Assembly: GCA_950295325.1 (NCBI GenBank)
Contig: OX485807.1
Coordinates: forward strand, 26,259,666 to 26,323,665
Length of the DNA stretch: 64,000 bases
From: Polytrichum commune
Taxonomy: Eukaryota > Streptophyta > Polytrichopsida > Polytrichales > Polytrichaceae
Direction: 5' to 3'
This document shows positions 2,450-64,000 of this stretch, piece after piece. The notes beneath the pieces are model-generated. The model saw only the letters and a list, made by a program, of their open reading frames with translations, did not search any database and had not been told where the DNA came from. The translations under genes were made by a program, and so were the position numbers. The first letter of the stretch is position 1; each line of letters begins with the position of its first letter.

Positions 2450-2562
2450 GTGCTGGATTGATTCAGGATTTAGGGTTTGGAGCTTCGCAGGCAGCAGGAC
2501 CACCGCCATCGCCACTGCGCACGACTCTCACGGGGGAGGAAGGCACAGGGCCGGGCGAGTAC

Positions 2563-2748
2563 ATGATCGCCGATCACAGGCAGCAGGAGGCTGGCCGCGC
2601 TACTGGGGAGCGTCGCCGCACGGAAGGAGGAGGATTATCGCGGGTGCGGCTGGTGGTGGTGCTTGCGGGCAACAAGCAACGACGGAGCGGTTGGGGTTTG
2701 GAGAGGCGAGCCACGTTGAGAGGAGGCGAGGGTTGCAGGAGTAGCTAG
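2563..2748 (+). CDS. Upstream ORF (61 aa) ending 1 nt before the main start, copy 1
   Basis: An ATG at 2563 opens a 61-codon frame ending in TAG at 2746-2748. One base later comes the main ATG at 2750. Copy 2 keeps the same arrangement and length at 12752-12937, with only two residue differences visible. The peptide is Arg/Gly-rich with no recognisable domain. A ribosome finishing this frame would release almost on top of the main start codon, so reinitiation or attenuation is plausible. Because the duplication is recent, conservation between copies alone does not prove function. Confidence 0.4.
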   Translation: MIADHRQQEAGRATGERRRTEGGGLSRVRLVVVLAGNKQRRSGWGLERRATLRGGEGCRSS

Positions 2749-2749
2749 A

Positions 2750-12627: not shown

Positions 12628-12751
12628 GTTGGATTGATTCCGGATTAGGGTTTGGAGCTTCGCAGGCAGCAGGCCCACCGCCATTGCCATTGCGCACGAC
12701 TCTCACGGGAGCCTAGGAGCCTGGGAGGGAGGCACAGGGCCGGGCGAGTAC

Positions 12752-12937
12752 ATGATCGCCGATCATAGGCAGCAGGAGGCTGGCCGCGCTACTGGGGAGC
12801 GTCGCCGCACGGGAGGAGGAGGATTATCGTGGGTGCGGCTGGTGGTGGTGCTTGCGGGCAACAAGCAACGACGGAGCGGTTGGGGTTTGGAGAGGCGAGC
12901 CACGTTGAGAGGAGGCGAGGGTTGCAGGAGTAGCTAG
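12752..12937 (+). CDS. Upstream ORF (61 aa) ending 1 nt before the main start, copy 2
   Basis: Counterpart of the uORF at 2563-2748. Start, length, stop and 1-nt spacing to the main ATG at 12939 are all preserved. Differences from copy 1 are limited to a Glu/Gly and an Arg/Trp change. Translation is not shown. Confidence 0.4.
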   Translation: MIADHRQQEAGRATGERRRTGGGGLSWVRLVVVLAGNKQRRSGWGLERRATLRGGEGCRSS

Positions 12938-12938
12938 A

Positions 12939-15279: not shown

Positions 15280-16540
15280 ATGGAGAGTATACTAGTGTGA
15301 AGTGCATGTGCTAAAAAGCATATGCTTCGAACATGTGTTTGCCATGTGATTAAAACAGGCATGGGCATTTTTTCTTTAAAGTATGTACTGGTTCCACCAT
15401 TTGCTAGAGCCAGATTGTGAACGGTTAGTTTCTGTATTGAATCATGGGGGTTTGGTAAAGTGGGGGGCTACATACTTCCAAGGGGAATCCTGTAGTAGCT
15501 TGTTAGTCTATATTCACGTCTTTCTCCTGTAGTTTTATTTCTAATATGTAGCAACTCTTGAGGTAATGCTGAAAATATATATGGAGGTCTAGAGGCTGGT
15601 AGATTATCAGCAAAATTCGGACTGGCCATGCCCAGCACAGCAAACATGTCTCATCAGAAGGTTGGATGGGCAGTACGGGAGTGAGTGTTCATGTCTATGA
15701 AGGATCCTCTCCTTCTGGAACTTCAATCATCCAGATAGAAATGCTCCTAAGGCATTCTTTGAAGAGGCGGAAGTTTTTCGCAGAGATGAACTTCCCTTGT
15801 TACGGTGGTTGTTAGATAGAAGGGTTTAGATTATACTTCATGCGGGGTCTAGTACCATTCTTAGGAAACCTTGGAGTAAAGAGCAGCTACTTTTGCCATT
15901 ATGGAATGATGAGTGGTCTGTAAATGAAACGGAAAGTTATTGGTGAGGTTGATCTGATTGTGAGAGAATGTTATGAAATAGTGAAGTGATGAGAAACCTT
16001 TTGTTGATATTTGATGATGAGGTTATGCTGTGGATGTGGTGGCTTTGCGGTGTTTGGCGGGTATGCTTCTGTTGTTTTGTGACTTGGTTGACATGAAGAC
16101 TTGTAAGTATTGTAATGTTTGAGGAGTTCCATGTATAGAGATGATTAAAACGTGTGGAGGTAAGCCAAGAAATGTATTTGAGTTGTTGAGGATTAGTTCT
16201 GACAAAGATGTAAAAGCTTGTTTTGAAAATTACCTTGCTTTAGAACTCTCTTCATGAAATGCTTTGCCCATTTCATTCTGTATGAGATATTGTGTACCAT
16301 GTTTGAATTATCTTGCATTAGTTTGTGAGGAGTGTGCAATCATCTCCAAGTGTGCAAATCTTTACTCGTTGCCAAGTAGTTCGATGAAGAGTGGCATTCC
16401 ATGATTAGTGACCAGAATTCGTTGAGCTATTTTCTACACACTAGTGGCTAAATATGGCATGCATATTTAGCTTCTTTTCATTGTGTGGTTATCTGGATTG
16501 TGATCTGTGTATTTTGAGCACACCTAACAACCTAACGATA

Positions 16541-23493: not shown

Positions 23494-26400
23494 TCAGACA
23501 GGTGAAGCTTGGTTGGTAGGTTCGGATGAAGAAGTTGGTATTTCCGGGCCCACTCGGCAGCCTTCCAACATGAAGACAACCTCGGTCATGGAAGGTCGGT
23601 CCATGGGGTCCGGGGCGGTGCAGAGAAGGGCGACTTTGACAGCGAGAAGAAACTCTTCCCACTCGGAAGACTCCGGATCTAAATCCAATAAACTCGGATC
23701 AAAAAGCTCCGAAACTTGGCCGACTTGAAGCTGCCGTTTCACCCATTTCACTATATCCTCTTCCTGAGATGTGAACATGACCGGTCTCCGACCTGTGAGA
23801 AGCTCAAGCAACACGATTCCGAAGCTGTACACATCGGCCGCGCTTGATAGCTGGCCGGACACGTTAGCCTCCGGGGAAACGTAACCCAACGATCCGACGG
23901 GGGTTGAAGAGGAAGAAGGGTCGGTCGGCGTGATGGACAATTTCTCTAACCCGAAGTCGGACAAATGAGCTTCGAAGTCGGCGTCGAATTGCACGTTGTT
24001 TGGTTTGACGTCGCCGTGGACGATCGGCGGGTCGCATTGTGTGTGTAGGAAGGATAGGCCTCTGGAGACACCGAGGGCAATGAGATGACGCATTGGCCAG
24101 TTGAGTACGTGGCCGTCTTGTTGTGAGGCTTCCTGGAGTAATGAGGCCAGGTTGCCGTTTGGCATATAGTCGTATACTAGAAGGCGCACATCGCCGTGGA
24201 CGTAGTAGCCCCGTAGGACGGTTAAGTTGCGGTGCTTCACTTTGCCTAGCATCTCCGCTTCTGCTTTGAACAGGCTCTCTTCCACTGCTCCGTCTGGTAA
24301 TCTTCGTACCGAAAGCACAGTTCCGTCCTACAGAAAAGTCCACAACGCAGAAGATTGAGCTCGAGCTCACGAAATATTGGAGACTTGGAAAACCCACAAT
24401 GACTTAAAAACTAACTTCCTCGCGAATTGTTGTTACACTAATCTTATAGCTCTGAAAATTCATCTCCAGCACACCAAAAATTAGATGGCTTGCAAAACGC
24501 ATGATGAGGTGAAACCTTCTCCCCCGAGTTGTTGTTACATAAAACCCGTAACTCAGAAAAATAATCTTGAGCACGCGAACTTAGGAGGCTTACAAAACCT
24601 GCAATGAGCTAAAACTTCTCCCGCGAATTGTTTGTGAACAAAACCCACAATTCGGAAAATTCAGCTCGAGCAAACTGAACGTTAGAAGGCTCACAAAAAC
24701 CCACAATAACATAAATCTCCCCCGCAAATTGTTCTGGATATCCGACTCTTGTCATCGCTTGCAATTCAAAATGAAAAGTGAACAAGACGAGAAGAAAAGA
24801 GTACCTGCAGAATGGCCTTGAACACAATGCCATGGCGGGTTCGACTAAGCACATGATCCTCATCAAACTGCCCAGTAGCCTCCTGGATGTTAGCCAGAGT
24901 GATGGGAGAGCGGAACATGATAACCTTGTCTTGAGGCGATGGCGGAGCCCTTGTTAGCCGTGGACCCTTCTTCTTGGCCGCACACCAGACACAAACACAA
25001 CAAAGAACCAAAACAGCCAACGCCAGAAACCCACCTCCACAAGCCACACCAGTTATTACTCTCCAGTTCCAGAATTTCTTCCCCCCAGCTTTTTCCGGCG
25101 ATCCAGTGCCATTACAGTACCCATTCGATGCTACAAGTGGTGGACCACAAAGGTTAGCGTTACCAACAAACGAAGAGGCGTTAAACTTCGTAGCGAGCGA
25201 TGTAGGAATTGCACCTTCCAATTCGTTGTGGGACAAGTCAAGCAGAACCAAACTGTTCAATTTCCCAAGCGACCCCGGAATTTCTCCTGTGAGATTATTC
25301 CAAGAAAGGTTTAAGTCTTGCAATACTGTCAGATTGCCCAATTCCGCAGGAATCTGTCCTGTGAAAGAATTATTCTGCAAGTCGAGCTCTATTAACCCTC
25401 GCAGCTGCTGTAACCCCGGTGGGATCACCCCTGTCAATCTGTTGCTATGCAAATCAAGCAACTGTAGAAGATTGCAATTCAACAGCGACAGAGGTATGCT
25501 CCCATGAAGTTCGTTCACACCCAAGTCCAAAACCTGAAGACTAGTTGCATTTCCAACATCAGGTGGGATTTCTCCGGTGAGTTCATTTTCGGCGAGGTTA
25601 AGAGTGGACAACTTCGGGAGGTGAAGGAGCTCCGGGGGAATAGAACCATTCAAGGAGTTTCTGCTCAATGACAAGATAGTGAGTCCAGAAGCATTTGCAA
25701 AAGAGACAGGAATGCTTCCACTCAAACCGTTACCCTCGAGAGAAAGCTCCTGAAGGTTGGTTAGGTTAGTGTAAGATGGCGGAATGCTACCTGTGAAGCT
25801 CTGTGCACTGAGGTTTAGGGTTTGCAAGTTTGTGCAGCTGCCAAGTTCAGGGGGTAAGGCACCGCTCAGATTGTTCCCACCGAGCTCCAGAATTTGCAAG
25901 TGCTGGAGCGATCCAAGGGACGGAGGGAGAGGGCCAGAGAATTTGTTCTCCCGCAAGTCAAGAATTTGCAGCTGTGTACATTGCGAAAGGTTGCCAGGAA
26001 CACTTCCGCTGAGGTTATTGAAAGCCACCGAGAGGCTGGTCAGGCTTTGAAGCAAGCTGAAATCTCCAGGGATGTCTCCAACAAGTGCATTGCCATCCAG
26101 AAGCAAAGATTGCAGGTTCAAGAGGCTGCCTAACCCTAGAGGTATTGCACCGGAGAGGTGGTTCGCGGAGAGGGAGAGACTCCGCAAGCTCACAAGCTGA
26201 GTGACACTGCTTGGGATTGCACCGCTGAAGTTGTTGTAACTTAGGTCAAGAGATTGGAGGTTGCGCAACTGACTCACCTCCGTGGCGATGTCGCCACTGA
26301 AAGAATTATGCGACAGGTTCAGTTTCTGGAGTTGAGCAAGGTTATGTAGTGTGTTGGGTAAGGCTCCCGAGAGCGAGTTCACAGCAACATCAACCTCTTG

Positions 26401-27976
26401 CAACAAAACAGTATTTCCTAAGTCAACAGGAAGCTCCCCGGTGAGATTGTTCTGTCCCAAATACAAAACCTGGAGAGATGGAAAGCTGCTGAGAAACGAA
26501 GGCACTCCACCAGTGAGGTTATTGCTCTGAAGCTCCAGCCTCAGCAATTTCGTCAAGTTTCCAAACTCCACAGGAACTGATCCCCCGATGTAGTTCAGGC
26601 TTACGTCCAAACGCTCCAAGTTGACTAAACCCCCGAGCTCGTGAGGCAGGTCTCCAGTTAAGAGGTTGTTTCCCAGGGCGAGAGTGGTGAGATTAATGCA
26701 GTTAGCAATCTGCACAGGTATGGTCCCGGAGATCATGTTGTTGGTGAGGTCCAGGACATGGAGGGAACGCAAGTTTCCAATCTCGGAGGGAATGTTTCCT
26801 TGTAACTTGTTGGAGGAAATACTGAGAGTCTGTAAACCCTGGGGCTTAACCAGAAGCTCCACAGGTATGGCGCCAGAGAACGAGTTCTCAAATAGGTAAA
26901 CAGCATGGAGGAGTGTGCAGTTTCCCAGGGAAGCTGGTAGGTTGCCGTTGAAGCTGTTTGTGTGGAGGTTGAGACGCCGGAGCTCCCCCAAGTTTCCCAC
27001 CTCCGCTGAACTCACAAAAAAATTTGTTCAGCCATGACTGACTGAAGAAAAGGACTGTCTCTCGGCTCTTGGCGCAACAACAACTTCGGAACATTACATC
27101 TACAACCAAAGAGATAGAAAGGATAGCACACATTGGCATTCCCTAAATTAAACGATGCAAGAGGACTAAGACGACTACAACTGCTCGCAAAGATTCTGTT
27201 CGGCCATGACTGACTGAGGAAAGGCATTGTCTCGGCTCCCGTTTTCAAGATAATTAGCGCAACAACTTCGGAGCAGAAGTCACATAGCCAACAAGCTCTA
27301 CAACAAAACACACATTGGCATTCCCTAAACTCGATGGTGCAAGAGGACGACGGCGACGACAACAACTGCCCTCTTCCTTGCACAACCTCGTGGAAATCAA
27401 CCACATTTCTCCAGAGGTAGAGTACTTTGCTATCAACTGAATTTTTTATAGGACTTATTTTGCAGCCAAGAGATTGTCTCGCCTACCTTGGGGAAACAGA
27501 AACTCGGAGAAGAGAAGACTAAGCACAGCCGACGGGCTACAAAAGATAGTACGCATTGACATCCACTAAACTAGAAAAACAAAAACAACTACCATCTTCC
27601 TTGCATAAGATCCAGATTTCTTCCGAAGAATAAGTAGAGAAAGAGAGAAGGAGCACTTTGGGAATTGGGAGGGTGACCTACCTGCCAAAGGACCCTGCAA
27701 GCCAGCGGCTTGAAGCCTCAACTCGGAGACTCGGCCGTTGGTGCACCAGACTCCTCTCCAGTCGCACGGCGCATTGGGTGTGGAGGTAGTCCAGTTGGTG
27801 AGGGAGCTCTGGGGATCCACCAACACAGCTTTGATGGCCAGAAGCGCCGTAATATCACCCTGGACATCTTGTGCTCCAACAACGACAACGCGAGCACTAA
27901 CACTTAGTAACAGGAGTGTTAGAACCAGCTGCAGGCGACGTTGTAGGGCCAGCGCCCTGCTGGCCCCCATAACCAA
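23494..27976 (-). CDS. LRR receptor-like kinase, MUSTACHES/MUSTACHES-LIKE type (3 exons, 1109 aa)
   Basis: Exons on the minus strand are 27976-27682, 27005-24805 and 24327-23494, with donors CAG|GTAGG and CAG|GTACTC and acceptors TTCAG|CGGAG and TGTAG|GACGG; the joined frame is 3,330 nt. The protein has a signal peptide (about 1-36), an LRR N-terminal cap with CDWRGVWC (71-78), roughly two dozen plant-type LRRs (to about 690), a transmembrane helix (about 748-775) and a kinase domain (about 800-1090). Signature stretches EVLGKVKHRN-like, LVYDYMPNGNL, LNWPMRHLIALG, DFEAHLSDFGL and VVFMLEGCRVGP match the Arabidopsis At4g36180/At1g75640 pair, implicated in stomatal symmetry and lateral root development. 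It should be a plasma-membrane receptor; no ligand can be inferred. Catalytic residues are atypical: Arg840 replaces the VAIK lysine, HRD is HGD (936-938), and the glycine loop is degenerate, while DFG (956-958) is kept. The first of these also occurs in the family. Confidence 0.93.
24340..24735. repeat. Minisatellite in receptor-kinase intron 2 (~101-bp unit, ~4 copies)
   Basis: The block CGCGAATTGTTGTTACA (variants) recurs at about 24421, 24524, 24621 and 24722, each preceded by an AAACTTCTCCC-like block and followed by ACCCACAA and GGCTCACAAAA words. The array fills most of the 477-bp intron (24328-24804). Confidence 0.8.
27012..27600. repeat. Tandem duplication in receptor-kinase intron 1 (~171-bp unit)
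   Basis: CCATGACTGACTGA occurs at 27032 and 27203, and the following ~150 bp align, including GCAACAACTTCGGA, CACACATTGGCATTCCCTAA and CAAGAGGAC blocks. A third, weaker unit lies at about 27460-27600 (GAGATTGTCTCG, CATTGACATCCACTAAACTA). It lies inside the 676-bp intron 27006-27681. Confidence 0.75.
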
Positions 27977-49169: not shown

Positions 49170-49965
49170 GACCGCCAAACTCCCAGCAGCGACCTAACCC
49201 TCTCTGCATCGCCGAACTCCCAGCAGCGACCCAGCAAGAGGAGCCGGCGTGAGGCAGACCGCGAAGAAGACCTTCACCAAAAAAGTAAACAGATTGAAGA
49301 AACCAGCAAAGATCTACATCAGATCTACCAAAAAAACCTTCATAGCAAACACCACCGAACTCTCAGCAGCGACCAAACTCTCCCTACATCGCTGAACTCC
49401 CAGCAACGACCCAGCAAGAGGAGCCAGACTAAAGCAAACTTCGAAAAACTACACCAAAGAAGCAGTGAAGATCTACAGCAGATTTGTCAAACCTCTAACC
49501 TCGCAGGTCCACAGAACAAACACCGCCGAACCTCCAGCAGCGACCGAACTCTCTTTGCAGCGTCGAACTCCCGGCATCGACCCTGGAAGTGTAGCCGGAT
49601 TAAAGCAAATCGCGAAGAACACCTACACCAAAGAGACAGGAAGCAGATTGTAGAAGTCAGCGAAGCTCTGCATCAGATCTACCAAACCTCTAACCTAGCA
49701 GATCTACACAGGGAAAAACGCCAAACTCTCAGCAGCGACAAAACCCTCAACACCGAACTCTCAGCACCGCCGAACTCTTGGCACCACCGAACTCACAACA
49801 GCGACAGAACTCTCTCTACGCTGCCGAACTCCCAGCAGCGACCCAGCAAGAGGAGCAGGACTGAAGCAAAGTGCGAAGAAGGCTGTGCAGTGCTACACCA
49901 GATCCCCCTCGCAACCAACCTCGGAGGTCCAAGGAACAGACGTACTACAACCCTGCACCGAAGGT
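49170..49965 (+). repeat. Tandem-repeat leader of the LINE (~171-180-bp units)
   Basis: The phrase GAACTCCCAGCAGCGACC (variants) recurs at 49214, 49394, 49565 and 49826, with a partial earlier copy near 49178. Each is followed by CAGCAAGAGGAGCC and GATCTACA-CAGATCT blocks; offsets are 180, 171 and 261. The array lies immediately upstream of ORF1, where some LINEs carry promoter monomers. An open + frame of 293 codons crosses it but only repeats the same Ser/Arg/Gln-rich peptide, so coding is doubtful. Confidence 0.75.
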
Positions 49966-50123
49966 GAAGAGTAACCAACATAGCAGGCCCAAAGAGCATA
50001 CGAACTACAACCCTGCACCGTAGACAAGGAGATAGAGGAGTCGAGAGAAGGAGAACCCGAGAGGCAAAGTACACACAGAAGGAGCGGGCTCGGGACCTAG
50101 TGAGCTCGGGCTCCGGGAGCAGA

Positions 50124-51901
50124 ATGACCCAGCCAAAGACCTCTCACCGAAAGGGCTCGGGAGTCGAGGGGGGAGGACTAGCCCCAATCACCCTATCAAA
50201 ATTTTTTGGAGAGGACGAGGATATCATGGAGGTAGACTCTCCAGCTCAAAGTCTAAAGAGACTTTTAGAGGAAAAAGCAAAAAATCAAAGCAAAAGCGTA
50301 GCTCATGGTAAACGGACTAGAGAATTCACCAAGGGAACACCTAGTCAAAAGGTCACAGCTGAGGAGTCCGCCCTCGTACACCTAACCAAATTCAAATTTT
50401 GGTTAGGCTTTGAGACCATGGAGAAAATTGCTAAGGAGCAAGGCATTGAGGAGCTCTTCACAAACGAGTCCATTGCCGATCGAATTACGAGAGGCATCCC
50501 CCGCAAAGAGGCCGAAGAATTAGAGAGTGTAAGTATCTCTTATCCAAGAGTCCCTCAAACCCTTTACCCAAGTGAGAGGAGCGATGGCATAATGGGACAA
50601 CACCTTAATCTAACCCAACTCCCACAAGAGATAGAAATTGACCCCATTTCTAAACTCTCCATGGATTTTCACATTGCAATCCACTTTCAACTCCCCAACA
50701 ACCCTCTCTTGCACAACCACGTCAAAGAGCTAGTCAAAGAGAGGCTAAATGAGATGAAAATCCCATTAGGCACTAGCCTCATAGAGCCTATCTCAATTCT
50801 ATGCATGAGTGTGAAAAGGGGAGGAATGAAGGGAGTATGGGCCGGAATTATTAAACTCCACCTCCTCAACCCCCATATTGACGGAATTGCCTTGCTTACC
50901 GGACTTAGAGCCTTCATCCTTCACCTTGAGCCTCACTCAAGTGTTGGATGCCTAGGGAAAGTGTGTAAATCCTACCATACTATCGCTAGGATCAACAACC
51001 TATCAATCAAAATTACGAATGAAGCACTAGTGGGTATAACCGCCCACGACCTCTTTCTAGATGTCCTAGAAAATAGTTTTAGGAGAGGGCACAATTTCGA
51101 AATTGTGGAAGTCCAAAAGGGTGCCGCTAATAACCATGCCTACCTTGTCGCCCCCACCCCCTCCCAAGCAAAAAAGATACAAACCCTTCAAGTCTCTACC
51201 AACCATCTAATACTAGAGGGTCAAACTAAAAAGGGCCCCTCTCTTACCTTAGAACAAAAGGCTAAGAAAGAGGCCCTTCTTCTTACCTTCTACAACCTAC
51301 CTATCCGCATGAATATTGTGGATACCACCCTAGAGATCCGTAGAATCCTAGGGGCAAAAAACGTAGTGTCAATATGGTTTCATAAGGAGGATGGCCTAAG
51401 GCACAATGGAAGTGCTAATGTGGAGTGTCTCAACCCCTTTGTCTATAGAAAATTCCTAGGTAAAGAAAGATAGGGGCCTACCACGTAGAAATTACCCCGC
51501 ACCGGCGAAGTCTAGAGGGTAGCGAAAAACCCTCTAAGGAGTTACTAGCCAAATTTGGGTTTGAAGACACAAATACGTGTTTGGTAAACACGATCGAGGC
51601 TATTCAAAACCAAACAAATGGAGAAGCAAGCGCTACTAAGGAGGATGTTTTTACCGTGATGAAAGAGGCTATCGAGGAAGGTAATAAAAAACTTAAACTC
51701 GAACTTCATAAGGATATGAAGGAGCTCAAAAATGACATTGTAAAAGAAGCGCATATTTATGCGGATGAAATTAATGAAAAGCTCAAAATACAAATGTTGG
51801 ATATTCAAAGTACCCTAACCTTGGCGCTTAGGGGCATGCAACAAATTATGGGAGTGAGTAAATCAAACCTCTTGCTCAAAGATCAACCAAATGTGGAGTG
51901 A
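50124..51901 (+). pseudogene. LINE ORF1: RRM-like nucleic-acid-binding protein with C-terminal coiled coil, one frameshift
   Basis: An open frame from the ATG at 50124 runs 449 codons to TAG at 51471. The continuation lies in another frame, from about 51480 to TGA at 51899-51901. Before the break there is a C-terminal RRM-like segment (LTFYNLPIRMNIVDTTLEIR, then NVVSIWFHK and GSANVEC, as beta strands around helix 1). After it comes a heptad-rich region (KEAIEEGNKKLKLELHKDMK) predicted to coil. RRM plus coiled coil is a common LINE ORF1 layout, giving a trimeric RNA chaperone that packages element RNA. The N-terminal ~300 residues are not recognised. A single frameshift near 51473 separates the parts, so this copy would make a truncated product. 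Confidence 0.7.
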
Positions 51902-54666
51902 CCACAAATCGCCTAGAACCCAAAAAGTATTTACCAAAATACTATACTATACAAATCTACGTATATATACGTATACAATACATACATACTACAATAAACA
52001 CAAAAGGTATTATACAATACCAAATAAACCGTATGACGTACAAAAACAAAATACGGCCCCTATACCCAAACAAATACAATACAAAACAAAAAACCATTTA
52101 CCATATACTCATACCAAAATACAATACTCCAAATAACCGTATGATACACAAATACGAAATACGTCCCCCGTACCCAACAAAATGCAATATACAACAAAAA
52201 ACTACTACTCAACCAATACCCAAGCAAAAATACAAAATCCACACACAAAACAAAAAACATAGAAAACACCGCCATACATTACACAACAAAGACTCAAATC
52301 ACCCCTCTAACCCAAAATACCTCCAACTACATTCAAGAACCAACCGTCAAACAAAACACCGAAAAAACCTAAAACAAATACTTCATCCAACTAACAAAAT
52401 ACACCCAAAAGACACATTTTTTCCAAAACGGAACTCACATCCAAAACAAGAAATACATCCTAACTCAAAAACATACCCACAAAATGTATTACACCCTAAA
52501 CACCACCCCCATCCAACCCCCAAACAATGCCCCCCCACAAAACCCAACTCAATAACAAAAAGATATAAATCACAACCCATACCTAATAAACTACCGTTCT
52601 CAACACCAAACTACCACTCAAATTACAAATACCCAAAAAAAAAAATGGCCTCGGCCTACCGGCCTCGCCATAAAACTAAATACAAAAATAACTTTACACA
52701 ATATTGGGGAACTAACCTAACTACAAGCAAACATACAAAATTACAATCCATACCTAAACAACTAAAAAACATTATACCCACCCCACCCATCACCCCCCCT
52801 ATAACAAAATCCACACCAAACAAATACCACAAATCAAACAAGAACAAACCAAAGATACCTTCATCATGCATCCAAATCAAAGATACCTTCACCATACCAA
52901 CAAACAAACTTCATCTTACATCCAAACCACATCTAAAATATAAGTTGCATCCTAAACAAAGGACGTACTCAAAACTAAATCCCTCCCTCACACCTAAACA
53001 ATCAAATAACATAATACACAACCCGAACTCCGTTAAATACTCAAAATTCATACCACATCCAAGGCACCTCCTTCATCCAAGACGCGGATCCCATCCAAAA
53101 TACATAAACTACCCAAAATACATATCTCATCCAAAACATAACCCACATTATGAACTAGGAACCTACCCTAACCTAATCAATTACCCTCCGCCCAATCAAC
53201 TAAGAAATATAACATCCCCCCCACAACAACATACCCACCCAAAACAAAAACCACCACGGCCCCACCCAATATACTACCCTCACATAAGATATAGTCCCCA
53301 CTTAAAGCACAATCTCCATCCAAGAAACAAGCTACATCCAAATTATAAAGTCCACCTAAAACATAAACTTCATCCAAAAACCAAACTATCCCCAAACCAC
53401 AAACACCCCCAACTTCGCTCACAATACATACCTCATCCAAAACATAGACTCCATCTAAGACACATCTCTCATCCAAATAATAAACTTCATCCGAAATATA
53501 GAATACACTCAAAAGTTAAACTCTACCTAAAAAACAAAGTGCATCCACAACAATGCCCAAAACATAATACCCACCCAAAGCAAGAAAACCAACCTAACCT
53601 AGAGCCCCATCCACTATCTAAAATACATCCCAACCTAAGCTCAAAAAGCACACCATACCCTAGCTCCAAACCCAACCTCCACTCGAAAAACAAATTATGT
53701 CAAAACTACGAAATGACCGTGACCTACCATCTTCATCACAAACCAAACCCTATCACAACCAAATGGAAACCAAGCACAACTACAAAACACGTACTCCAAG
53801 ACAACTCCCATACACACCTAACAACTAAATACAACACCCACCAAAACCACAAACCATTCCCCAAAAACCACCCCTACCCAAAACTAAATATACATATTAA
53901 ACAAAAATTCAACCCGAAAAACAAAGCAACCTCAACATACCAACCTCACCTCTCAACAAATGCCAAAGCACACCTACAAAACAAATGCTCCAAAAATAAA
54001 CCCTACCCTAGCTTCGAACACCATAACAAAATCAAACACCTATTAAGCCCTCATATAAAATACCAACCCCACCCAAAAAACACAATGGCCTCGGCCTACC
54101 GGCCTCGCCACACAAATAATAACAAATACCACTTCATAAATAATTGGAAACCTAACTCAATAACAAGCCAAAAATCTACAAATAATACGAAACCACACTT
54201 CTCACCCATACAAATAGAAAAAACCATACCCGCTATACCTAACCTATTTTCCACAACCAAATGTACAATCACAATATATCTAAAAACAAACATGAAAAAC
54301 CCCAAAATAATTCACTTCCACGGATACTACTTCATTAACAAACTAGAATTACTAAAATGCGGAGACATAGAATCCAACCCCGGACCAATGCCTAACATCC
54401 TACATACGCATCCTGCTACACACAAAAAGAGAGCCAAGATATACTTCATTCCAAACACTATCAAACTACAACCTGAATACCAACACATAGCAAATACATT
54501 TGCTCCCATACTAAGAAATACACACCCTCTACACCATCAAGCAATAATTACCCACCCACATCTACACCAATACATCCAAACACAAAGGCAATCACCACCA
54601 ACCCATATGCTATATGCTATATGCTATAGTCATCACCATCCACCCCTCAATAGACACATGCAATAG
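51898..54666 (+). CDS. LINE ORF2 N-terminal part: HPK-repeat protein ending in a 2A motif (922 codons, open)
   Basis: Open from a GTG at 51898, overlapping the ORF1 stop; the first ATG in frame is 52033. The plus strand here is A/C-rich and almost lacks G (one G in 52501-52560). TAA should be frequent in such sequence, yet the frame is open for 922 codons, so it was under coding constraint. From about 52400 to 53700 the product is built of degenerate hexapeptides of type [LIVS]HP[KR]xK, giving a very basic His/Pro/Lys-rich protein. A MASAYRPRH module occurs twice (52645 and 54085, 480 codons apart). Residues 816-830, LELLKCGDIESNPGP, fit the 2A consensus D-[VI]-E-x-N-P-G-P, so the ribosome would skip the bond between Gly829 and Pro830. 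No known domain elsewhere. The frame is lost near 54605 in a 7-bp tandem repeat. Confidence 0.8.
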   Translation: MTTNRLEPKKYLPKYYTIQIYVYIRIQYIHTTINTKGIIQYQINRMTYKNKIRPLYPNKYNTKQKTIYHILIPKYNTPNNRMIHKYEIRPPYPTKCNIQQKTTTQPIPKQKYKIHTQNKKHRKHRHTLHNKDSNHPSNPKYLQLHSRTNRQTKHRKNLKQILHPTNKIHPKDTFFPKRNSHPKQEIHPNSKTYPQNVLHPKHHPHPTPKQCPPTKPNSITKRYKSQPIPNKLPFSTPNYHSNYKYPKKKMASAYRPRHKTKYKNNFTQYWGTNLTTSKHTKLQSIPKQLKNIIPTPPITPPITKSTPNKYHKSNKNKPKIPSSCIQIKDTFTIPTNKLHLTSKPHLKYKLHPKQRTYSKLNPSLTPKQSNNIIHNPNSVKYSKFIPHPRHLLHPRRGSHPKYINYPKYISHPKHNPHYELGTYPNLINYPPPNQLRNITSPPQQHTHPKQKPPRPHPIYYPHIRYSPHLKHNLHPRNKLHPNYKVHLKHKLHPKTKLSPNHKHPQLRSQYIPHPKHRLHLRHISHPNNKLHPKYRIHSKVKLYLKNKVHPQQCPKHNTHPKQENQPNLEPHPLSKIHPNLSSKSTPYPSSKPNLHSKNKLCQNYEMTVTYHLHHKPNPITTKWKPSTTTKHVLQDNSHTHLTTKYNTHQNHKPFPKNHPYPKLNIHIKQKFNPKNKATSTYQPHLSTNAKAHLQNKCSKNKPYPSFEHHNKIKHLLSPHIKYQPHPKNTMASAYRPRHTNNNKYHFINNWKPNSITSQKSTNNTKPHFSPIQIEKTIPAIPNLFSTTKCTITIYLKTNMKNPKIIHFHGYYFINKLELLKCGDIESNPGPMPNILHTHPATHKKRAKIYFIPNTIKLQPEYQHIANTFAPILRNTHPLHHQAIITHPHLHQYIQTQRQSPPTHMLYAICYSHHHPPLNRHMQ
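54361..54387 (+). other. 2A ribosome-skipping motif GDIESNPGP
   Basis: Codons at 54361-54387 read Gly-Asp-Ile-Glu-Ser-Asn-Pro-Gly-Pro, preceded by a helical LELLKC context as in active 2A sequences. 2A-like peptides are known in picornavirus-like genomes and in some animal and trypanosome non-LTR elements, where they separate an upstream product from the endonuclease-RT. The position here is equivalent: about 200 codons before the endonuclease. Confidence 0.85.
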
Positions 54667-54669
54667 CAT

Positions 54670-55806
54670 ACTAGCCCAACCCCAAAACTACCACTTTAAC
54701 GACATATGAACCAACACACTAATTATTAGACTAGCTAACCTCACCAACCCCCCCGAAAGACACATACAGACACCGCACCCCTACACAATATTCATAGAAA
54801 ACAATCAACATATAATACTCTCCCAAAACTCAATACACACCAAAATATACGATTTCATCCACAACCAAGCCACCACACCCACACCAATCACCCTCAAGAA
54901 AGAATTCCCCTTCCTTCCAAACCAGTTAATAACCGAAACACTTAGATGTTTAGAAAATATAAGCGAATACTCACACCCACGCCCACTCCCGGCCGCTCCC
55001 ACACCAATCACAAGAATAAACTCTAACACCGAGCACGAAACAAGCATAATAACTTGGAATGCGTCATCGCTCAACACATCACTACCAAACTTACAAGATT
55101 TAATCAACAACTCTCTAAATAACACAGCAATCATTCATATCCAAGAAACCAAACTCACTGCAAACAAATCTACTAAATATATACAAAACTTATTTCCGGA
55201 ATTCAAACTCACTTTCAACAACACACACGCACTCACGAGGTGCATCCAACAAAGAATGCCCTATACCCCGGAAGAGGTGGCCTACTCACACTTATCCATC
55301 ACAAATATGCATTCCCAGGAAATGTCACCAAAATTCCCACACCAGCAAACATCTCCCCGTACCTACAAGTAATAAAAATAAACAACCATCCACTAACACC
55401 TTGGCTAATTATACATATGTATATGCCTACGCACCTAGAAGACACATGTCTTATCCCACACCTTAAGAATGAAATCACTAAACAAATCACTACACACCCC
55501 AATCACATATACACACTGTGCGGTGACTTTAACAGAGATATTGCACTTAAGGACAGACAAAATAACAACACTACTACCCCCCCCACAAGAAGAGGACTTC
55601 CAATGGAAAAATTTTACAACATCTCTCGACTTAGAATATATCACTACCAACACTAGTATCTCCAGACAAGGTGGCTACAACTACACATCAACAAGCCTAA
55701 TAAATGGTTTCTACATTCACTCCCCTGACAACAGCAAATTTACCTCCACTACAAATACAAACATGAATCTAAATTCAGATCACTACCCAGTCACATTACA
55801 CATCCC
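54670..55806 (+). pseudogene. LINE APE-type endonuclease domain, frame-broken
   Basis: Motifs appear in the expected order across changing frames: IITWNASSL (about 55046), IQETKL with the metal-binding Glu (55139-55156), GRGGLLTLIHH (about 55270), CGDFNRD (55519-55539) and NSDHYPV (about 55772). These define the apurinic/apyrimidinic-type endonuclease that nicks target DNA for target-primed reverse transcription. Frame changes near 55240 and at an eight-C run (55577-55584), plus a stop near 54704, inactivate it. In intact relatives it would be N-terminal in the product released after the 2A site. Confidence 0.85.
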
Positions 55807-58470
55807 ACACAACACACTTATAGCTAGACCTCCGCCCTCTACAAACACCACACCAACTAGGATACTGAACCCGATATCACCGGAAAACCTAGAAAAATTT
55901 AACATAACATTCTTCGAAGAAAACTCCACCCAACTTAAAGAACTTACCACACTATTAGAAGACAACCAACACTTAACACCTGATCAATGGCAAAATGCCT
56001 GCACATCATTGGACTACATTATAAACAAAATCTCAGAAACAATTGGAAAAACCTGCAAAGCAGACCCTCTACCCAACCTCACAAACAAAACATCACAACA
56101 AGGTGGTTTTTTACCACGCAAACTAGCTAGAGAATGGAAAAGACACCTCAACACATATCACCTCATCAGGAAAACCATTTACATTGTACAAAATGACCCA
56201 AGCTGGCAAGTACACCCCATCCTAAACGATATCCGAAACCACCAACACGTCAACATCCCGCACCCACTTACTACAACAACATCTCCTATCGAATGGATTG
56301 ATACCATAGCAACTATCGCAAAAACGGCAAATAAAGAAGCCAGGAAAATTACCACAAAATACACCAGAGACTACATCCTAAAAGCCGTATCAAAATACCG
56401 TCAAATGTATGAAAAAAACCCCAAGAAAATAAATCGGAAAGTCTTCAAGAACACTGAAACCTCACCTCTTGACTCCATCATTGATAGACAAAACAACATA
56501 TTAACCAACCCTGAAGACATTGCTTCAGAGATTTACGCACAACAATCCATCAGTAACCGCCCAACAGTCCCCACATGCCACTATCAAAATACACATCCAA
56601 TTCACTGTTCATGTGGAGTAAGGCAATACCCTTGGCACGACTTAGATGGATACATAATCGACAGACGAGGAGAACCCCAAATCCCCTTGCACACATACTT
56701 TGATCAAGAAACATACGACTTTTGTCTTAAAAACCTAAGCAATAATAAAGTCCCAGGTCCAGACAAAATCCCCAACTCAATTCTAAAAAATTGCCTCCAC
56801 GCTTTCACAAAATATTGTTTCTATTCTTTAAACACTGCTATAAACAAAAACAAATCCCAGCATCATGGAAAACTAGACTAACAGTTTTACTATATAAAAA
56901 AGGTAACCCATCACAACAAACAAATCACAGACCTATTGCACTAGCTAACACTATATATAAATTATACACAAGCACATTAACCTCTATCCTATCAGCATAC
57001 GGAGAAAGATACCAAATACTAAACGATAGCCAAGAAGGGTTCAGAGCAGAAATAAGCATCTCCAGACAAATCCAAATACTAATTGCAGCGCTTGAAGACG
57101 CCAGACTCACAAATCAAGATATATATATACATTCTTTACATTGACTTCAAAAACGCCTTTGGTTCCATTGACCACGCCAGACTATTAGACATAATGAAAG
57201 ACCTGGGTTATCCCAATGACTCCATAAACCTCATAGGAAACATATACTCACAATCATCAACCATATTTACCAACGAACACTTCGGAAAAATTCTACTAAT
57301 CCACATCCAAAGAGGTACAATACAAGGCGATACCCTTAGCCCATATCTATTAATCATATTCTTGGAACCCCTACTTAGATGGCTGCAACAAGGAAATAAT
57401 GGATATACCTTCGGTACGTCGAGAGTGAAAATCTCATCAGCAGCATATGTAGACGATCTTGCAGCAATCGCCAACAAACTAGAAGCATTACAAACACAAT
57501 TAAACAAACTAGATAAATTCTGTGAATGGACAGGAATGGACCTAGGTATATCAAAATGTGCAGTGACTGGATGCCCAAACAAATCTAAACTTAACCCCAC
57601 AACCTTCAAGGCCCTAATCCAATCCACTAACATAAATTATAGAAACCAACCTATACCAGTCCTAAACTAACATGAACCCTATACATACCTAGGAATAAAT
57701 CTTGCACCATCATTCAAATAGAAAACACAAATAAATACCATCACAGCTAAAGTAATCAAACAATGTCAAGCCCTCGTAGCTTGCCCAGCTACTATGAAAC
57801 AAAAAATCAACATGGCAGACACAGTCATACGTGTTGGAATAGCATATAGTTTTTATGCAGTACTATACTCCATACCAGCCATAAAAAAACTAGACAAAAA
57901 AATCATCGCACTCCATAAAACAATATGCGGAATACCTAAATGCACATCTAATATTGCCACGCAACTCCCCCACAACCTATTTGGAATTGAAGCATTTTCA
58001 TTACAAAATGCCTATCTAAGGTGCATTGGAGAACAATTACAAAATGCCCTCAATGACAAAGGGAGAATTGGGAGAATATATACCAGTCTAGTACAATTCA
58101 TACTCGCCACACATGGGGGCTCTCAAGAAATCACTCGCATTAAATACCACCACTGTGTTAGGTCACCCATCACTAGAACATTGTTCCTGCTAAAACATAA
58201 AGCCGGAGTCCATCTAAAAAGCATAATAAATAACTTTCTACTAACCCCATCCTCACTTGAAACTGCTTGGATGCAAGAAGCACAAATGCTACATGGCCTA
58301 AACTCCAACATCTCACTTAAACTACTACACAAATTACTTATACATAATATAACCACACTAGACCAAATTACCTTGCCTAATGGTACCACTCTGATGAACA
58401 AGGACGAATTCAAAATCTACCACTTCACTCCTTCTAAACTTATCCAAAGCGCACTTAACATAGCTAATGA
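55807..58470 (+). pseudogene. LINE reverse transcriptase, frame-broken
   Basis: After a linker of about 300 codons, RT motifs run NNKVPGPDKIPNSILKN, LTVLLYKKGN, NHRPIALANTIYKL, QEGFRAEIS, YIDFKNAFGSIDH (motif A), GTIQGDTLSPYL (motif B), AYVDD at 57443-57457 (motif C, catalytic Asp pair) and YTYLGI (about 57680). It copies element RNA at the nicked target. The thumb and connection region follows to about 58470 (LDKKIIALHKTICGIPK). Frame changes lie near 56840 in an A-rich run and near 57125 in an AT repeat; stops are at 57668 and 57719. All catalytic residues are still legible, so decay is fairly recent. Confidence 0.9.
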
Positions 58471-58525: not shown

Positions 58526-58813
58526 CCACCAAGATCCCTCAAAAACAAATATATAATAAGAAATCACAACATTCTACCTCACACACCGACCGCCCCCGTA
58601 CACCCTCTTAACCCCCCCATCCCCCATCTACCTCCTCCCCCCAACAACATGCTTAAAGACCCCCGACAATTTCCCATACACAAAATACTCGATCACAAAC
58701 AAAAACAATCTAACGACCACAATGGAATAAAAAGAACAGTTACGTCATATATGTGTCAATGGACCACAACAAATAACAACACATATAATAAATGGCGAAC
58801 CCAAAGGGACCTA

Positions 58814-59756
58814 CCGTAGGTTCATAGCTGGTTCGACACATGTTAGCCGAATAATTAATTAAATTTAAAAAAGTCCGTTCGGCACCTAAAAATAGAATAT
58901 TCATATTTTTGGCAATTTTCTCTTTCAATTTTAAAATTTCGGCTTAAATTCATTTTCTATCTTCTATTTAAGCTTATATCTTGTACATATCTCTTGCATT
59001 GAATGACAAGTAAGATGTGAGTGAAGAGTTGAGAATGCTCTGTGCTTTATGCAAGTAGAGTGGAGTTGTGTTCAACAATGCATATGGGATATGTAAACTT
59101 TGAGGTGAAGCACCGAGTTAGACTTCATTTTTATATCACGCATAACTTTTGCATAGAGTCTTCAAATGACATAAAATTTGTTGGAGGTGGAAGATTACTT
59201 GATTTCTAAACTTTTCTTAGACCAACAAAATTCCAAAAAAGTTGATCTTCTATGCACAAATGAGCTCCGAAAAACTGTTATGAACGCATTTTAATTTTTT
59301 GATCTTTACACGGCTGCAATGTTTTGTCCATATCTTTTGCATAAAGACTTATTTTGACACAAAACTTGTTGGAGGTGGAAGAAGGATTGATTTCTCAACT
59401 TTTGTTAGTTGGACAAAATTCTATAAAACTTCATCTTCTATGCTCAATTGGACTCCAAAAATTTGTGTACAACACATTTGAAAAGCCTCACCTAGAGTCT
59501 TGCTACTTCTTAACCCATATTCTTTGTGGACTAATGTAAGTGAGCTTGATTACAAAAGGAGCACCTTCTCTCTTTCAAAATTCACATATGCTTCCACTGT
59601 AAGTAAAAACTCTAGTGAGAAGTAAAAATTTCTTACTTTTCAGAAATTTTGAAAAATAATTAATTTCATATTCGGCAAAAAATGCCAATAATATTCCAAA
59701 TTTTTCGGCATCTATTTTTAGAATTATTTTCTGTCGAACCAGCTATGAACCTACGG
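58814..59756. mobile_element. TA-flanked inverted-repeat transposon (MITE, 943 bp) inside the LINE
   Basis: CCGTAGGTTCATAGCTGGTT at 58814 is repeated as its exact complement at the right end (59756); the perfect inverted repeat is 25 bp. TA dinucleotides flank both sides (58812-58813, 59757-59758), as for Tc1/mariner-type insertion. Removing the element with one TA rejoins the LINE frame without a shift. The interior contains a ~189-bp direct duplication (GTTGGAGGTGGAAGA at about 59179 and 59368) and no transposase. Confidence 0.9.
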
Positions 59757-59758
59757 TA

Positions 59759-60868
59759 TACCCCTACTGTGAAGCCAACATATGCAATCACAACACAAAC
59801 CTGCTTATCCAATATTACACAGAAAGACAACACAATCATTTTTCAAACATCATTAACGCTTACTTCACCACGGAACAACACCGAGACACAAGATACATCA
59901 CACCATCCACAATAATTCCGCTAGCACATATCTCTATTAGTGAATGCAACCCATAAAACGACATTGAAACAAATTCTGATAATATCCAAACACAATTCGA
60001 TGTCGCCCACATATACGAAGACAATGGAAGGCATCTCATCACCATCCCGAAAGCTAGACTAACATGGCTATGGAAACAATACCAATTGGCAAAAAATACC
60101 ACACATGGTCTAGAACCATCTACCCAATCATTCGAAACTGAAATTGTCTGGCTATACCAAAGATACAAATACCGTATCCCAAAGAACGATCCACTCAAAA
60201 GAGCCCAATATACAATACCAACTCAAATACTGGATCTACTAATTAGAACATTCAATATTACCTACTCATACTTTTCATCCCCAGTTACATGTCCTACACA
60301 ATTCATCCAATTCTACTCACCCTTTTCACGAGACATAATATTTGGATCCTTAGGAAAAATGTTTGACTATAAATGGCAAGGAATTGGATATGCACATCCT
60401 CACACCTCAACATACCTACAACAAGCCATTCACTGGGCACGCATGGCGGCCCAAAATGACCCTTACACAATCACTATAATTATATCCCCAGACATTGACT
60501 GGTACCAAAACTCGAACCCACACACAGGCCCATTCCCAGACACACATGTCATTGCCCATTTTGCTGCTGACACAATCACATACGAAGAACCAACAATACC
60601 CCCCGAACTCAATACTACAAGGAAAGAACCATCTACCATGCAAATATTCTGTATCCATCACCAAAATAATAACATAGGTACCTACGAACAAATAAAGCTA
60701 ATACACGACACAGCAAATAACCTCCAAATATTACAAAGCCACACTCAAATTGCACCACCCACCCCTCCGAACATCACCGTTAACCCTAGTAAAAAATGGG
60801 CTAAATCAAACTACCCAAACACACCCCTATACAATAATAACCCCACCCCACAACTCCCAAACTACTAA
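59759..60868 (+). pseudogene. LINE ORF2: unrecognised domain between RT and RNase H
   Basis: In the same frame as the upstream RT part, about 300 codons continue here, clean from 60086 to a stop at 60866 apart from an earlier stop near 59955. The segment TYSYFSSPVTCP, FYSPFSRDIIFGS, YKWQGIGYAHPH, AIHWARMAAQNDP and TITIIISPDIDWY alternates predicted strands and helices like a Rossmann-type enzyme. The order SP...FGS...W-G-AHP...A-WA-AA loosely recalls N6-adenine methyltransferase-like proteins, with AHPH where NPPY/F would be. That resemblance is weak and only suggestive. I do not recognise the family firmly. Confidence 0.45.
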
Positions 60869-61239
60869 ACCAACTTACCACTAAAATTCCACCCCCAATT
60901 TAGCTACTACACAGATGGATCCTTTATAAAACCCAAAGAAATTGCCCCTGGAGTATGGAGAAGAGAAAGAGCTGGATACGGTATCTATAGCCCCAAAGGC
61001 TTAAATATCGCTAAAAGACTCCATGGACATCAAAACATACTATGTGCAGAAATGATGGCTATACACAAAACACTAAGAATCATCAATACACAATTCCCTA
61101 ATGAACCCGCATTTATATTCACAGACAGTCTAAATGTACTATATCTACTCAACACACAAATTAAACACCCCACTCTCCATAATAGTCACCCAGACCAAAC
61201 CACATTCAACTCCATGGTAAAAATCCTCCAAGACCGTAC
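60869..61239 (+). pseudogene. LINE RNase H domain, 5' part (interrupted by LTR insertion)
   Basis: In the ORF2 frame: SYYTDGSF (60905 onward, first catalytic Asp), ILCAEMMAIHKTL (Glu at about 61049) and FIFTDSLNVLYLL (Asp at about 61122). These are the D-E-D residues of RNase H type 1, which removes template RNA after reverse transcription. The domain stops abruptly at the solo LTR; the final His/Asp part lies at 63749-64000. Confidence 0.85.
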
Positions 61240-62848
61240 TGTGGAGGGCACCTTCAACCTTCCAGCCTCAGACGGTGTAACCCGCTGCTGAACCGGTTTA
61301 CATGGAAGTTACTCCCACCAAAATTAGATCTTCTCTTCTCTAAGTCTCGTGAAGGTGTTTGCATTCTTCTGTATCTCAATTCCGTAACATGCAGTTCCAA
61401 TATCCTTATAAACTCTCTAAGAGTAGTTGGTCTAAGACTTATGTTTCCCTGAATCTAATGTCAAGGTTTGGTGTTCCTAAACCTTTAAATAGGTTTAGTA
61501 ACACAATGCTTTTCTTAATCAAGAATATTGTGTTCAAGACCCTTTTATAAATCCCTAGGGATAAAGTGTCCAAGTTGTCAAGTTTATGTTCCCCGAAAGT
61601 GCCCTTAACGAGAACACTTCTACAATATCTCTCAGTATGTAGTTCCTTTTAAATAATCTCTTAAATGGATAGGTACCTTAGACCTTAAGCTAATGTTTCT
61701 CAAACGTGTAATGTCAAGGTTAAGTGTTTCCCCGAGAGAAACATCCTCATACCATATCTTTCATGATTGAATTCATCTAAAACATATTTCCAAGTTTATA
61801 ACTCTCGTAATTTGAAACCATCTAAATTCTTCTACCCACAATATCTTTCATGTTTTGAATTTAGACCCTATCGATTTATAATCTTATATAGGATACTTAT
61901 TCATTCCTTTAGATTCCAATGCAATAATCTCTATTCCGTTCAAGTCTTCACACACATTGCCTAAATACCTTCATAAGGTAGCATACTCCCTCGCTAAGTC
62001 AAGACAACCTAGCGCGTGGAAGATACTTAGGCATAATTAAAATCCCTTTTACATTCCGTAATTTATAAGTGTATGCTCTCGAGCCAAATCTCTAAGGCTT
62101 AGCACATAATTGCTACTCCTTAGAAGATTCCAAATATTTGACTAAGGCCGGCTAAATCCCCAGAATATTCTCTTAGGCCGCCAAAATCCCTAAGTGCTAA
62201 GGTAGGGGATTTTGATGACGAGGTCACATCTCGGCCACCTTTGGTTCCAATCCTTTGCTTGCTTTATGATTTGATTAGTCTTATCAAGTCCTCTCAAGCA
62301 AACTAATCTCGGTGCCTCAAATCCAATGGCGTGAAAGGTAATGATGTGAACTTATGCTAAGGTGTCAAGCTTCGGCTTGAGGCATCATCACCTTTTCCAT
62401 CAATGAGCACTACCTAGGTGATTTGGTTTTCTTAGCTTAGATCCTCTTGCCTCAACCTCTTGCCAAGTACGAATAAGGTTTTAGGTGTGTAGTATCCCTT
62501 TTTAAGCTCAAGTGTTGCTACATTCATTCTCAATCATTTCCAATCATATTTCATATAAGATAATTTTCTTAATTGTTTTCTTAGGTGAATATGGTGTTCA
62601 CTTTCCTAAGGTCTTTTGAAAATCCCGCATACTCCAAATTCCTCCGTTATGCGGCCTCCTCCGAAATTTTGATTTACTAAGTCTTCAACTCCTTGTACGG
62701 ATTCTCAATCTCGCACGTTGCGTGATAACACTTTGTGAGCTCGCTCTGCTAACCGTGGTGAATGTCTTGCTCTCGCGAATGCGCCGCGGTACGCTAAAAA
62801 TCTCCCAACGTACCAAGTTCGCTCTGCCAATCCAATTGGAATTACTAA

Positions 62849-62990
62849 GGCACCGCGGGTGCCTATATGTAATTCCAATGCACCGTGGGTGCCTATGGAA
62901 TTCCTAATGCGCCTCGGGCGCCTATGAATTTCCTAATGCACCTCGGGTGCCTAAGATTTCCTAACGCGCCTCGGGCGCCTAATGCGAACT
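62849..62990 (+). repeat. Degenerate ~31-bp tandem repeat in the solo LTR
   Basis: Units of CCTAATGCGCCTCGGGCGCC type (variants CACCGCGGGTGCCTAT, CACCGTGGGTGCCTAT, GCGCCTCGGGCGCCTA) recur about five times. Each contains a small GGCGCC/GGTGCC palindrome around CGGG. Confidence 0.7.
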
Positions 62991-63496
62991 CAAGACTCAA
63001 GATACGGGAGCTCGGACACTCATGTGAAATTTGCGGAATAGAATGAAGTGTATTAGGGCCCTCAAGTGGCCTCCTTATATAGTCTCACAAATCTACGTTT
63101 TCCTAGGATTTTTGTAAATGTTAGCTCGGCTAAATTTAGCAATTTATCTAATAATAGCCTGATTAAAAGTCTTTAACTCATAGAGATTAAATTTAAATAG
63201 TTTGAAATGTACTTCCTACCTACATGTGCTATGGTTGGATTCTCATCCATCCACCCCTAATTAAACATGTGCTCCTACACGGAATTATGTTCATGCCTTT
63301 TCATTTCTCAAATTGGGCCCTTTTTACATTCATTTCCAGTTACTATTTCGACCTTGTGGACTGGGCCCTATTCCCGGCCATAACTAGTTCGTTTGGTCCT
63401 ACTAGTAACCTAGCCTAGCTCGGACTAGTTCGTCCTTATAAAGGACCCGGCAGTCTGCATTCGTTTGATAACCGGCTCTCGCCTCCCGATACTCGG

Positions 63497-63620
63497 CCAG
63501 CTCGTCTTCCTCTGTTGGCCGGTCTTGCCAGCTCGTCTTCTTTCGCCGGCCGGTCCGCCAGCTCATCCTCCTTCGTCCGCCAGCTCGTCCTCCTCACCCT
63601 GGCCAGCTCGGCCTCGCTAC
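63497..63620 (+). repeat. CCAGCTCGTC tandem repeats in the solo LTR
   Basis: Five spaced copies of GCCAGCTCGTCTTC-like sequence at intervals of about 22-31 bp follow the TATAAA word at about 63436. This pyrimidine-rich block would fall in the transcribed part of the LTR. Confidence 0.6.
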
Positions 63621-63748
63621 CATTTCGCTCCTTGCAGCTTCCTAACGGCCCCGTTCTCACTTCGCTCTTCGCAGCTCCCAAACTCTCTTTTCCTGTCTCT
63701 GCCTTCTCACCTTCCCTGTTGCTGTGACGATCACTTGGTGACACTACA

Positions 63749-64000
63749 CGTACACAACCTATCACACTATACAAAGTCAGAGCACACGTCAACATTGACG
63801 GTAATGAAAAAGCGGATAAACTAGCAAAAGACGGGTTAGAATTAGAACACAGAATCGCCATACACCAATACGAACATGCCCACGCCACCCCATACTATTA
63901 TCAAAAGGACGTATGGGCCTCAATGGAAGAAGTCCCAGACAAAGGTCCAGTAAGATTCTTAGAAAAACAAATTAAAAAATATGACAGGGAAACCAATATA
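63749..64000 (+). pseudogene. LINE RNase H domain, 3' part (runs off the window)
   Basis: In the ORF2 frame after the target duplication: LYKVRAHVNIDGNEKADKLA, carrying the conserved late His (in RAH) and final Asp (in KADKLA) of RNase H, then about 60 further open codons to the edge. Together with 60869-61239 all five usual active-site residues are present. Confidence 0.88.

Follow-up and report, generated by a model that had tools for sequence, protein, structure and literature searches.

A group of large, LINE-like retrotransposons of the Polytrichum commune genome very probably carries a working-type 2A/StopGo signal. One copy lies within the window, that is, the whole stretch of 64,000 nucleotides from contig OX485807.1 that was analysed; there, FHGYYFINKLELLKCGDIESNPGP is the translation of positions 54316-54387 of the plus strand. 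Its last fourteen residues, ELLKCG-DIESNPGP (54346-54387), join a L-rich hexapeptide to a full 2A/StopGo core, and the canonical 2A motif that a preliminary description had read in ORF2 was thus borne out by translation, being also the sole full core match when all six frames of the window were scanned. The predicted point of release would follow Gly (54382-54384), with the downstream product starting from Pro (54385-54387). Both the window and the genome copies show the core pattern (D/G/C/N)(V/I)ExNPGP. The features of the window copy are collected in Table 1.

Table 1. Features of the retrotransposon copy, numbered from the first letter of the window.
Feature	Position	Strand	Evidence or remark
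Degenerate tandem repeats ahead of ORF1	49171..49881	+	self-comparison
ORF1 region	49968..51901	+	open 49968-51470, then other frame from about 51479, TGA 51899-51901
ORF2 N-terminal part, basic His/Pro/Lys-rich, imperfect 6-residue (18-base) repeats	51862..54363	+	frame analysis
Upstream hexapeptide ELLKCG (p6-p11), L-rich, CG at end	54346..54363	+	translation
2A/StopGo core octapeptide DIESNPGP	54364..54387	+	translation; intact in 67/80 copies chosen blind to the motif
7-base tandem repeat at frame break between 2A and endonuclease	54605..54628	+	window copy
Endonuclease region (WNA, ETK, GDFN, SDHYP)	55043..55810	+	motifs by eye; three stretches, two frames
Reverse transcriptase (RVT_1, YVDD)	56690..57660	+	E 2.1e-25; frame broken in window copy
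Inserted TIR element, 947 bases	58812..59758	+	27-base perfect inverted repeats, flanking TA counted
PCIF1-like domain between reverse transcriptase and RNase H	59957..60865	+	Pfam PCIF1_WW
RNase H domain, first part	60869..61239	+	E 2.6e-11, both parts together
Solo-LTR-like insertion, 2,509 bases	61240..63748	+	TG...CA ends, 5-base CGTAC duplication, within RNase H region
RNase H domain, second part	63749..64000	+	element continues beyond window end

The order of the parts in the window is an ORF1 region, a His/Pro/Lys-rich (H/P/K) leader, the 2A, a linker of about 220 residues, an endonuclease, a reverse transcriptase (RT), a Cys-rich stretch (recognized by eye), a PCIF1-like domain and an RNase H. 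The tandem repeats ahead of ORF1 are possibly the 5' untranslated region, and the ORF1 region itself gave no Pfam family at the curated cut-off. The endonuclease matched Exo_endo_phos_2 below the curated cut-off (E 0.0026; 18.1 bits against 27.4) and its start weakly resembled ExoIII (E 0.25), while a Pfam scan of the 1776-aa natural frame of sister copy L012 returned no match. Among solved proteins the nearest relatives of the RT were R2 proteins, L1 ORF2p being weaker. Judged by its sequence features the element is LINE-like: it has an RVT_1 reverse transcriptase, its copies are dispersed across the host genome, and an RNase H follows the RT, as in elements of I/ingi type, with both parts found in 19 of 20 copies and the twentieth truncated where the analysed stretch ends. 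The copies of family A, one of four families compared below, continue to the end of the ten kb analysed. The window copy is dead, having several frame breaks and five in-frame stops, and two insertions (the TIR element and the solo-LTR-like piece) interrupt it, the short flanks staying in frame across both.

The open stretch that carries the 2A runs from 51862 to 54663 and comprises 934 codons with 0 stops, as compared with 44 and 50 stops in the other two plus-strand frames and with 209 codons for the longest open stretch among 500 dinucleotide shuffles. Its composition over the full length is 13.5% K, 13% P and 10.4% H. The upstream product predicted from the first in-frame ATG (52033) to the Gly has 784 aa, a pI of 10.4 and a charge of about +133. 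That ATG is more than 130 bases downstream of the ORF1 end, which was counted against the 2A explanation. The preliminary description had placed the 2A between a repeat-rich N-terminal protein and the endonuclease-RT; the order held, but a shared frame did not in the window copy, where the 2A frame stops at 54663, ahead of the endonuclease, with the frame changing at the 7-base repeat.

The shared frame was recovered in sister copies. Among twenty copies analysed over ten kb, the 2A frame stayed open as far as the first endonuclease motif in fifteen, and in five all three endonuclease motifs lay in the 2A frame; four of those five also carried >900 codons in frame ahead of the 2A. Two of these four, L015 and L016, are oppositely oriented some 20 kb from each other; their figures were identical, and they may represent one duplicated copy. 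In none of the 20 ten-kb copies did the 2A frame stay open up to the RT motif QGDTLSP, and a fully intact ORF2 was not seen among them.

We examined if the motif is retained in copies selected without regard to it. The host genome searched has 64 contigs totalling 408 Mb; seven of the contigs are 42-78 Mb long. In the first blind set, for which the window endonuclease DNA was the query, 40 of 402 candidates were scored, the window copy among them, and the copies were distributed over the seven large contigs plus a single small contig. In the second, 40 of 354 candidates were scored using as query the DNA downstream of the 2A of L003, a locus of another family which itself came from a motif search. 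The octapeptide was intact in 67 of the 80 copies, 11 others having lesions and 2 being without the region. The first set contributed 38 of 40 intact octapeptides, the other two each having one fixed-position residue changed; the second contributed 29 of 40 (6 shared with earlier-examined loci plus 23 of the 34 others), the remainder being nine copies with one or two changes (one of these a stop) and two without the region. Arg replaced Gly at p11, immediately ahead of the core, in three of the copies counted as intact (two from the first set, one from the second). The preliminary description had looked to an absence of NPGP from related intact copies as evidence against itself; the motif stood at its expected place in 78 of 80 copies (67 intact, 11 lesioned), a comparison that rested on decayed copies, none of the twenty ten-kb copies being fully intact. 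In one of the 80 (L010), a second, variant 2A-like peptide, GDNETNPGP, lies upstream of the main 2A in a different frame, around position 1074 of that locus, and is perhaps a piece of an older copy.

These counts bear on the simplest alternative, that of a chance match in a low-complexity ORF. Given the window composition, about 7e-5 matches to D[VI]ExNPGP would be expected in the window. Genome-wide, the pattern C-G-D-I-E-[ST]-N-P-G-P in any codons gave 67 sites, and its reversed control 0. Chance matches do seem to arise elsewhere, as two exact pattern matches in IMG/VR look like chance, one lying within a long ORF of a viral contig and the other in a reading frame opposite an ORF of greater length. 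The number of genome sites, the retention in blind-chosen copies and the pN/pS comparisons across families refute this alternative here, and its probability is negligible. In the first of the two IMG/VR matches, GDIESNPGP at 3593-3618 of L002, the long virus-contig ORF by eye encodes a phage structural protein; the core alone proves nothing.

Selection was assessed over 76 rows representing four families, leaving out of the 80 copies L010 (outside the groups), L079 and L087 (region absent) and L091 (indel-shifted). The octapeptide was intact in 65 of the 76 rows. These rows are related and do not amount to 76 independent events; the case for selection lies in the agreement between the four diverged families. 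For p11 plus the core minus p15, pN was 0.011-0.029 at pS 0.40-0.65 in all six comparisons of the four families, whereas the next 32 codons after the core gave pN 0.14-0.23 at pS 0.54-0.84, and for the dozen codons before the hexapeptide pN was near pS. Purifying selection has therefore acted on exactly the 2A residues, and the comparison of the core with its neighbours that had been proposed earlier came out with the core sharply held and the flanks less so. Positions p6-p9 vary between families (pN 0.11-0.63 at pS 0.34-0.65) and are still L-rich; p6 and p9 differ, every one of the 76 rows has L or I at p7, and p10 is mostly C or S. The free motif position p15 is occupied by S, T, L, P or I; p12-p14 and p16-p19 are nearly fixed. 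LLLLSG and similar hexapeptides take the place of ELLKCG in another family.

The peptide might have been conserved for some other reason, as a fixed segment at the N terminus of the enzyme polyprotein, needed for binding, folding or proteolytic processing and 2A-like without skipping. Residues just after the motif (MPNIL, HP, YFI) are also conserved, as they would be if the motif were a segment of a larger conserved block, but conservation of the core is much sharper than that of the downstream block, and the pattern of freedom (p15 free, p10 mostly C or S, p6-p9 loose and L-rich) is the one described for 2A in the part of a viral survey drawn on here (PMC12846837). We consider this reading quite unlikely and retain that of a 2A/StopGo signal. 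In that survey, by Li et al. 2026, nearly 10,000 viral StopGo sequences are covered, and its text as drawn on here describes motif classes 2/6 as L-rich hexapeptides ending in (A/S/C)G with D at p12 and S at p15, and states that representatives of motifs 1, 3, 4 and 6 were active when assayed in reticulocyte lysate (PMC12846837). ELLKCG and LLLLSG fit that wording for motifs 2/6, an assignment made by eye and not via the MEME models. The plant sequences thus resemble the viral classes in the L-rich hexapeptide with (A/S/C)G, the D at p12 and the frequent S at p15, but the host here is a cellular retroelement, whereas in the sections of the survey used the hosts are RNA viruses (PMC12846837).

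The H/P/K leader behaved differently from the 2A and the enzyme. Its pN/pS was 0.86 within family A and 1.11 between A and one B copy, and these comparisons showed no purifying selection at residue level. The long segments after the 2A gave a pN/pS of 0.12-0.47 within A and 0.06-0.24 for A against one B copy; the RT_a segment (46 codons) gave 0.33 within A and 0.22 for A against L030. Leader indels showed no preference for lengths divisible by three (209 of 742 gaps), although the alignment is unreliable through the repeats, which vary in extent from copy to copy. Within the leader of the window copy, an identical 26-base GC-rich block occurs at 52645-52670 and 54085-54110 and reads MASAYRPR in frame, the leader being otherwise A/C-rich; no third match was found within the window with up to 7 mismatches allowed.

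Further families were sampled at 27 loci (20 sites with unlike codons and 7 first loci), and as these were chosen by the motif their core is fixed by construction. All 27 share the same join, with unlike sequence before the 2A and a common block, PMPNIL...TYFIPxTIK, following it; of these loci L057 has diverged furthest. Across 30 representatives (27 of them motif-chosen), mean pairwise identity was 13% at 24-40 residues ahead of the 2A and 57% at 14-45 residues after it. Since the leader is without residue constraint and unlike between families, whereas selection maintains the enzyme and the 2A, the leader is just as likely to be disposable or exchangeable as to be a gag-like protein. One version of the 2A explanation, rather than an alternative to it, is that skipping occurs, that the upstream polypeptide is a disposable leader with no function of its own, and that the 2A serves to free the enzyme. 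The lack of constraint, the 13% identity between families and the differing extent of the repeats are all consistent with this, but the leader is open for at least 784 codons in 9 of 21 copies (the window included), and the basic composition and twin 26-base block of the window copy hint at some role. We put the likelihood of this version at somewhat short of even.

We also considered if the elements could be recent horizontal arrivals from animals, in which case the plant would not be showing a long use of 2A. Use of 2A by LINEs is known in trypanosomes and other non-plant species; within this one genome, however, there are many diverged families, the 30 representatives forming 15 clusters at 80% DNA identity downstream, some of which were possibly split by insertions. 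A recent arrival is, on this comparison, rather improbable. LINE relatives beyond the host genome were not found in viral contigs (RT and endonuclease/RT queries), genome contigs, phages or plasmids; the plasmid search gave three weak matches, at a gene annotated cas1 in Arcobacter plasmids. Elsewhere in the window, an LRR receptor kinase gene lies on the minus strand (23497-27027), the best solved matches of its kinase part being BRI1 and BAK1, which supports a plant host. A direct repeat of about 3.7 kb, 91% identical, is found at 2450-6107 and 12626-16351 and is perhaps another mobile element.

PCIF1 is a cap-adjacent adenosine methyltransferase. The domain between the RT and the RNase H resembles it in matching PCIF1_WW above the cut-off (49.8 bits against 31.1; 3.8e-13) and, weakly, two solved PCIF1 chains (E 0.0021 and 0.0032), and it was present in 20 of 20 ten-kb sister copies. 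It is constrained, with a pN/pS of 0.33 within A and 0.16 for A against one B copy. The domain differs from PCIF1 in being set within a LINE polyprotein and in its residues at the position of NPPF, which we take to be the catalytic motif of PCIF1: the window copy has HPH there, and so do the 18 sister copies, out of 20, for which this part of the alignment was read. Structure prediction of this part gave a mean pLDDT of 36.9. The domain is probably no longer a methyltransferase, judging from these residues, and a role in RNA or cap binding would be a guess. Among the literature matches listed there was no precedent for a PCIF1-like domain lacking the catalytic motif in a LINE enzyme. The nearest comparison comes from retrotransposons bearing DNMTs: as far as the sections of that paper used here go, DNMTs were taken up by Symbiodinium LINE and DIRS elements and in charophytes (PMC5890265). 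Those elements, as described there, likewise have a methyltransferase-type domain within a retroelement, but theirs are C5 cytosine methyltransferases in other elements, whereas the domain here is PCIF1-like and probably non-catalytic (PMC5890265).

In the proposed mechanism, ORF2 would be translated as a single frame until, after the L-rich stretch and (C/S)GDIExNPG, the Gly-Pro bond fails to form. The basic H/P/K leader would then be released at ...NPG, and translation would resume at Pro to produce the enzyme polyprotein (linker, endonuclease, RT, PCIF1-like domain and RNase H). The 2A marks the point where a leader that changes fast meets an enzyme part under constraint. The motif, its position, the frame it shares with the endonuclease in sister copies and the selection on the 2A residues are shown by the sequences; that the plant's ribosomes skip here, how efficiently they would do so and what the leader does are inferred.

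Other 2A-bearing non-LTR elements reportedly include L1Tc of Trypanosoma cruzi (attributed to Heras 2006) and APE-type elements of multicellular organisms (attributed to Odon 2013). The present elements are like these in having a 2A with the core D(V/I)ExNPGP in frame with LINE-like proteins; they differ in their plant host, in the long fast-changing H/P/K leader and in the PCIF1-like domain between RT and RNase H, the last two being features that the others are not known to have. No plant LINE with a 2A was found among the literature titles and abstract openings listed, a partial coverage that was without the key surveys of eukaryotic and LINE 2A sequences. The viral survey, in the sections drawn on, gives no evidence of use by plant viruses and describes cellular use as rare (PMC12846837). 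From the portions used of two other papers, 2A is functional in plant systems (PMC12371167, PMC4981915), and a 2A-like signal of sea urchin NLR proteins, with the core NPGP, is active in Nicotiana cells (PMC4981915). The latter resembles the present signal in being a cellular 2A with an NPGP core; it differs in that theirs, by the same partial account, is in an N-terminal signal sequence, whereas here the 2A stands between a long leader and the enzyme (PMC4981915).

The wider proposition, that plant LINEs have long used StopGo as a modular joint, with the 2A under selection, the leader free to change or be swapped, and the enzyme released unharmed, has in our judgement about an even chance of being correct. 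If so, it would represent a native plant use of 2A and would account for the turnover of N-terminal proteins in these elements. Plant ribosomes would naturally meet the 2A signal if a plant genome holds a conserved set of such sequences. Plant biotechnology, according to the portions of the sources used, employs viral 2A/StopGo sequences (PMC12846837, PMC12371167); the present elements would supply native sequences and be a source of plant-adapted 2A peptides, and they would offer LINE biology a clear case in which a 2A separates a rapidly changing module from a constrained one.
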